From NCBI GenBank assembly GCA_963855995.1, contig OY979731.1:3311001-3375000 (forward strand): a DNA stretch of 64,000 bases, written 5' to 3'. A program made the translations under genes and the position numbers. The notes under the pieces were generated by a model. The model was not told where the DNA came from and did no database searches. It saw only the letters and a program-made list of their open reading frames with translations. Origin of the DNA: Muricea muricata (Eukaryota; Cnidaria; Anthozoa; Malacalcyonacea; Plexauridae). This document shows positions 11,653-52,174 of the stretch, piece after piece. Position 1 is the first letter of the stretch; the number at the start of each line of letters is the position of its first letter.

Positions 11653-12128
11653 TTACCTTCCCCGGCCTTTGCACAAGAAGACGACAGCTGCTGTTATGCC
11701 AACGATTAGCAGGGCACCACTTAAACATGGTAAAATAATCTTCCAAATTGGATCTGTTTTTCTGACTTGCTTGGATGGAAATGTTACTTTCACAGTGGTA
11801 AAATTTCCCAGCATTGCGCCCCCAGATACGTTGATCAGTTTTACAATGACCTCAATTTCCTGATTGGTATCAGGGATGGAAGAAAACTCCAGGTGAATAG
11901 ACGAATTCCATTGGCCCTCTTTGAATTCTAGTACACCATACATTGGAGACATGATAAACGAGGCAGGAACTTGTGGTTCAATGGCGGCACCCCACATTAG
12001 TTTTATGACACCGGTGGAACCTTTATGTCTGGTTACGTCTAAAAGCATTTCTCCACCATATCGTTCTTGCCTGTACATAACGTTGTCGTCTTCGAACACA
12101 GCATGTGGAGGAGGTTTGGACACAGTAT
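11653..12128 (-). CDS. Exon 15: Calx-beta domain, transmembrane helix, short tail
   Basis: Starts at acceptor TTGTTTTAG with the last two bases of an Asp codon. It encodes a Calx-beta-like domain ([52 protein letters not shown]). A basic stop-transfer context and one hydrophobic helix follow ([20 protein letters not shown] and VVFLC), then KGRGR and TAA. The stop codon overlaps a plausible donor (GGAAG/GTAAAAG), so the cytoplasmic tail may continue in an exon I could not find. No AATAAA is evident in the few hundred bases downstream before the hAT element at 11397. Confidence 0.85.

Positions 12129-52174: not shown

Follow-up and report, generated by a model that had tools for sequence, protein, structure and literature searches.

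An expanded gene family of Muricea muricata predicted to join an LLTP head, an FN3 stalk, and a membrane segment

Described architectures closest to the locus

Long FN3 ectodomains carried on one transmembrane segment are familiar from DCC, neogenin, and Sidekick, whose N-terminus consists of Ig domains rather than an LLTP module. Among the LLTPs, MTP is lumenal, and its large subunit is a chain of ~890 residues that includes the LLT module. In apolipophorin II/I, apoB, and apolipocrustacein (the APO family), the N-terminal Vitellogenin_N/LLT module is followed by an RX(R/K)R site, which in insect apolipophorin II/I lies past most of the module and is cut by furin and which has a similar counterpart in crustacean apolipocrustacein; DUF1081 and VWD are also listed for this family (PMC1783640, in the part of the text available). 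The vitellogenin/clotting protein (Vtg/CP) family likewise has Vitellogenin_N, and in that same part of the source, the architectures listed for APO, Vtg/CP, and MTP include neither a membrane anchor nor an FN3 array (PMC1783640). A vitellogenin-like skeletal matrix protein of Acropora is also an LLTP with rearranged domains, namely, a vitellogenin N-terminus, VWD, and a protein kinase domain, with FN3 not mentioned in the available part of the report (PMC4890752).

Here, we describe a gene of Muricea muricata that belongs to a conserved, expanded family and whose predicted product, an LLTP variant, carries its LLTP head on an FN3 stalk ending in a membrane segment. It shares with the APO family the N-terminal module and has a putative RX(R/K)R-type processing motif after it (residues 618-629), but adds the FN3 array and the transmembrane segment, and neither DUF1081 nor VWD gave a match in the parts scanned. 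With Vtg/CP it shares Vitellogenin_N, but it has a membrane end and, in the parts scanned, no DUF1943 or VWD match. The module that it shares with the MTP large subunit here forms the tip of a membrane-ended protein of ~6,600 residues; like DCC, neogenin, and Sidekick, this protein is predicted to combine a long FN3 ectodomain with a single transmembrane segment. Among the matches listed in the open-access literature, outside which most subscription journals fall, we found no LLTP-FN3-transmembrane protein; one paper gives both Pfam names, but, in the part available, in different proteins (PMC4877951). A membrane-anchored LLTP member, if true, would be another use of the module and a case of a carrier turned receptor or adhesion molecule, an idea that is directly testable because one copy of the gene, C8a, is uninterrupted.

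A fifteen-exon gene and its relatives in the same genome

The window, i.e., the whole stretch of DNA analyzed, comprises 64,000 nucleotides of M. muricata contig OY979731.1 (positions 3,311,001 to 3,375,000); positions below refer to it unless another locus is named, and all features of the gene lie on its minus strand. The predicted gene running from 52174 to 11653 is a real one. It has 15 exons, with AG/GT at 14/14 introns and consistent phase, the exon boundaries having been set by hand using open frames and splice sites. The coordinates, exon number, and phase of the initial annotation hold up, but its total of 6,623 codons has to be corrected to 6,612 up to the final stop, a count that includes one in-frame TAG (26593..26595; codon 2762, in exon 5) in a frame that had been implied to be uninterrupted.

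The genome holds at least six loci of this family, including the window gene, and the five others carry the head and the FN3 body collinearly. C8a has all 15 exons and encodes 6,624 residues with no internal stop, the donor of its exon 10 lying 39 bases earlier than expected. C3 has exons 2-15, a search of the retrieved sequence having turned up no exon 1. C18 has exons 2-7 and C8b has exons 3-9, in both cases with no stop in them; exon 1 of the former and exons 1-2 of the latter were not found in the preceding 7.5-8.2 kb. Exons 8-15 of C18 were not found in the ~20 kb that follow, nor were exons 10-15 of C8b in the following 13.7 kb. Because these 3' exons were not found, some family members may be without an anchor, and the two loci could represent soluble forms, fragments, or genes with long introns. 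The sixth and most diverged locus, C2:16.21-16.24 Mb, shows a head identity of 64-65% over residues 141-665 and of 52-57% over residues 663-937, followed by the FN3 array and later exons through the membrane segment (43-72% versus C8a), with no stop in 13/13 aligned pieces; neither exon 4 nor the start of exon 5 was seen, and a 2.45-kb stretch (16236001-16238452) lay outside the sequence compared. This locus also has apparent extra introns within regions that are the single exons 3, 5, and 11 at other loci.

Exons and their phases recur in the relatives, whose large exons encode protein that is 61-72% identical to the window product, and over exons 3-7 every pair among five copies is 66-70% identical. 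Between the window gene and C8a, dN/dS is 0.12-0.30 in all 15 exons; versus the other copies, most exons give 0.12-0.31, and the outliers are all short exons (C3 exon 9, 0.59, exon 10, 0.45, and exon 14, 0.04; C8b exon 9, 0.49). The recurrence and the ratios set the gene model apart from a chance pattern, and the ratios indicate that purifying selection acts across head and body. A rival view is that two adjacent genes, exons 1-4 and exons 5-15, were joined by mistake. However, the same exon order and phases are found in C8a (15 exons), C3 (2-15), C18 (2-7), and C8b (3-9), and C2 runs from head to transmembrane end at one locus, apart from the 2.45 kb outside the comparison. With the relatives collinear, we reject such a fusion of separate genes, whose probability is close to nil. 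The proposal that the head, the FN3 array, and the transmembrane segment form one gene is upheld by exons 1-15 being collinear and uninterrupted in C8a.

The TAG is a feature of the window copy, as against Q in C8a, C3, and C8b and L in C18 at the same codon. This contrast would fit a dead or dying gene in which the TAG leaves a fragment with no anchor, a fate that would concern the window copy only and not the family. Yet the 6,612 codons contain no further internal stop. Over exons 3-7, the only ones counted, changes private to the window copy are no commoner after the TAG (125/1117) than before it (180/1328), so constraint is not visibly relaxed downstream. We hold a dead or dying gene to be unlikely; a sequencing error, a polymorphism, or a null allele of recent origin would account for the TAG equally well. 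C8a is the best copy from which to read the function of the family.

From the LLTP head to the membrane end

Exon 1 (51995..52174), which is 70% identical to its C8a counterpart, provides the start codon, a hydrophobic N-terminus that is likely a signal peptide, and the start of the LLTP N-sheet. The N-sheet continues in exon 2 (36186..36426), an exon also found in relatives, with a PF01347 stretch at residues 35-189. Exon 3 (31484..35832) holds the remainder of the head (putative N-sheet and HEAT-like helical domain), a furin-type site, and the start of a helix-rich rod. The LLTP module spans residues ~23-620. Spliced residues 1-641 match the PF01347 Vitellogenin_N profile at 59.8 bits (E 2.5e-16; cut-off, 24), and exon 3 alone reaches 30.3 bits. 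All four aligned family heads (window, C8a, C3, and C18, the last two aligned without exon 1) match as well, with a best E of 5.3e-18. The LLTP signature first noticed by eye at the N-terminus is thus a significant profile match. A six-frame Vitellogenin_N scan of the animal's own genome (453 Mb, 74 contigs) gave at least 10 matches, 6 of which are the family of the window gene, compared with 0 in 14 control genomes.

The best PDB sequence relative of the window head is the MTP large subunit, a weak match (E 0.063), and a four-member head profile places MTP at E 0.63, below designed alpha-repeat proteins. HEAT_2 scores 17.7 bits in the window head, below its cut-off of 27.7, with 2/4 members at E <= 0.001; an NCBIfam HEAT-like family matched 4/4 heads at ~20 bits (cut-off, 300) and was set aside. 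A single-sequence AlphaFold model of residues 142-834, without exons 1-2, shows strands and then helices; at a pLDDT of 38, we used it for this order only, with which the hydrophobic-moment pattern agrees. DUF1943, DUF1081, and VWD gave no match in the parts scanned, namely, exons 3, 4, 5, 6, and 11 and residues 6259-6612. With no later LLTP domain matched in these parts, a closed lipid cavity is hypothetical.

Past the head lies a furin-type basic run (34367..34402; residues 618-629, RKRR...RKKR) whose basic residues are invariant in 4/4 family heads. Residues 720-1790 are helix-like by hydrophobic moment and form the rod, the remainder of which is encoded by exon 4 (29056..30739), followed by a conserved beta-rich domain (residues ~1800-2100) with no family assigned. 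In the PDB, exon 4 has no convincing relative, only weak matches to its helical part (best E 0.01). A second furin-type site (29183..29194; residues 2106-2109, RRKR) has its RKR invariant in 5/5 copies. Both sites are conserved and, like the TAG, had gone unnoticed in the initial annotation; cleavage at them could free the head. Exon 5 (22485..28424) begins with a segment at 27889-28424 (residues 2152-2330) that ranks highest in beta-amphipathic character among 12 regions tested and is conserved in 5/5 copies, with helical-moment windows at 0.21 in the window protein and 0.12 in C8a, compared with 0.65-0.73 in the rod. Judged from this periodicity alone, it is the leading candidate for a sheet that would contact lipid. 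Its PDB and Pfam matches are weak (best E 0.78 and 0.055, respectively), and a search for bacterial relatives gave eight pattern matches in genome contigs, none of them confirmed.

FN3 repeats run from the rest of exon 5 to exon 12. They fill exons 6 (20813..22311), 7 (19853..20483), and 8 (19237..19773), occur singly in exons 9 (18682..18859) and 10 (18019..18350), and flank the region of residues ~5520-5900 in exon 11 (14937..17878); the final one lies in exon 12 (14299..14805), ahead of a region with no assigned domain. Altogether, they make up about half of the protein. A profile seeded from the window's own repeats counts 30 in each of the window and C8a proteins, at closely matching residues; owing to that seeding, the figure is not independent. 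The independent profile PF00041 (cut-off, 25) reaches 55.1 bits in the part of exon 5 that follows the TAG and 25.9 bits in a C8a piece, whereas exon 6 (23.9) and the opening portion of exon 5 (18.8) stay below the cut-off. One repeat was modeled with AlphaFold from an alignment that also held 19 other window repeats, thus 20 of the 22 that are confined to one exon and free of the TAG, and the model has a mean pLDDT of 97.3. Its 15 PDB matches at E <= 0.001 are all titled as FN3 domains or their complexes, with moderate query TM-scores (0.47-0.62), and include the FN3 domains of neogenin and DCC. The array of about 30 FN3-like repeats announced by the initial annotation is thus confirmed. Two further domains named there are not: the region in exon 11 read as an FG-GAP propeller scores 13.5 bits (cut-off, 23) in the window, with no match in 3/3 pieces of C8a and C3, and the region of exon 15 read as a Calx-beta domain has no Pfam match in the window or C8a.

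Exons 13 (13485..13672) and 14 (12439..12593) have no domain assigned and are found in relatives. In exon 15 (11653..12128), the former Calx-beta region is followed by the predicted transmembrane segment (11671..11739; residues ~6585-6607) and the apparent stop. Both this segment and the signal peptide were called from hydropathy. The segment contains the top hydropathy window of the protein (2.51), residue 6589 ranking first and residue 1 second; the corresponding ranks in C8a are first (residue 6596) and sixth (residue 1). The C-terminal transmembrane helix proposed earlier thus coincides with the most hydrophobic stretch of both proteins. A similar segment ends C2, and that of C3 is shorter and runs into stops. 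In three of four family ends, the final TAA is part of a donor-like GTAA (window, AAG/GTAAAA; C8a, ACG/GTAAGG; C2, AAG/GTAAGA), C3 being the exception, so a cytoplasmic tail may extend into a further exon, and the end at 11653 may be an intron read-through. The search for such a tail exon gave no signal (best prefix score, 39, versus 35 in the reversed control), and the four matches of an ORF search were all to C8b and repeat-like.

Proposed function and its rivals

From N-terminus to C-terminus, the protein strings together the LLTP module, a furin-type site, the helix-like rod, the beta-rich domain, the beta-amphipathic segment, ~30 FN3 repeats, further regions, and the transmembrane segment. 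Our leading reading, to which we give slightly less than an even chance, is that of a type I membrane protein of ~6,600 residues whose head, borne on the FN3 stalk, is a surface partner of lipid or lipoprotein. Such a protein would stand on the cell surface with its LLTP head at the far end of the stalk. An FN3 repeat is ~3.5 nm long, and 30 of them would span roughly 100 nm. Its ligand, either in the fluid around the cell or on an adjacent surface, would be lipid, a lipoprotein particle, or a receptor for lipoproteins, with the amphipathic beta segment and the rod as the likeliest lipid-contacting surfaces. If the furin-type site were cut, the head might be kept by contacts, as the cleaved head of apolipophorin II/I is, or be shed in a regulated way. 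On this reading, the family would handle lipid. In its favor are the PF01347 matches, the weak MTP match of the window head, the uninterrupted C8a with all 15 exons, purifying selection across head and body, the predicted FN3 fold, the transmembrane segment at the end of the window protein, C8a, and C2, the invariant basic run placed as in apolipophorin II/I and apolipocrustacein, and the beta-amphipathic segment. More broadly, and somewhat more tentatively, a lipid-carrier module may have become a receptor or tether at the membrane in this expanded family, so that a relative of the lipoprotein came to act on the cell surface as the counterpart of lipid, of lipoprotein, or of a further surface. 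Several observations weigh against the leading reading: no later LLTP domain was matched in the parts scanned, the head model has a pLDDT of 38, and the head profile finds MTP only at E 0.63. In addition, the furin-type site could part the head from the anchor, the C3 membrane segment is shorter and runs into stops, the later exons of C18 and C8b were not found in the sequence that follows them, and the window copy carries a TAG.

A close second, a little less probable still, is a giant molecule for adhesion, with an LLTP head that now binds protein instead of handling lipid and an FN3 stalk that does the work. The later LLTP domains not being matched in the parts scanned and the share of the protein taken by FN3 repeats, about half, are both in keeping with it, as are the several diverged copies in this one genome (66-70% identical pairwise over exons 3-7), a pattern also seen in families of surface recognition molecules. 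The head, however, is constrained like the body (dN/dS of 0.22 in exon 3 versus C8a), and the beta-amphipathic segment is conserved in 5/5 copies, which tells against a molecule that has given up lipid. It is also conceivable, albeit improbable, that the head or the whole ectodomain is cleaved or spliced into a soluble secreted carrier, the membrane form being its precursor. The conserved furin-type sites would suit a secreted product, as would the fact that no 3' exons were found for C18 and C8b in the sequence examined, but the transmembrane exon is kept in the window gene, C8a, and C2.

The surroundings of the gene and the genome scan hold a few further features. In intron 1, window 49954-50211 is a copy, 93-97% identical and ~2.2 kb away, of 52141-52402, which comprises the start of exon 1 and sequence upstream of it. 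The same intron has long simple repeats (TATATC and TA at 41600-42100; GT at 39900-40030). Open frames at window 43500-44150 and 9918-10595 resemble, by eye, pieces of transposase; six window ORFs tested against Pfam gave no family at E <= 0.01. The four genomic Vitellogenin_N matches beyond the family cluster on one strand at C2:23915687-23929989, and this cluster at 23.916-23.930 Mb may be a separate, intron-rich LLTP gene.
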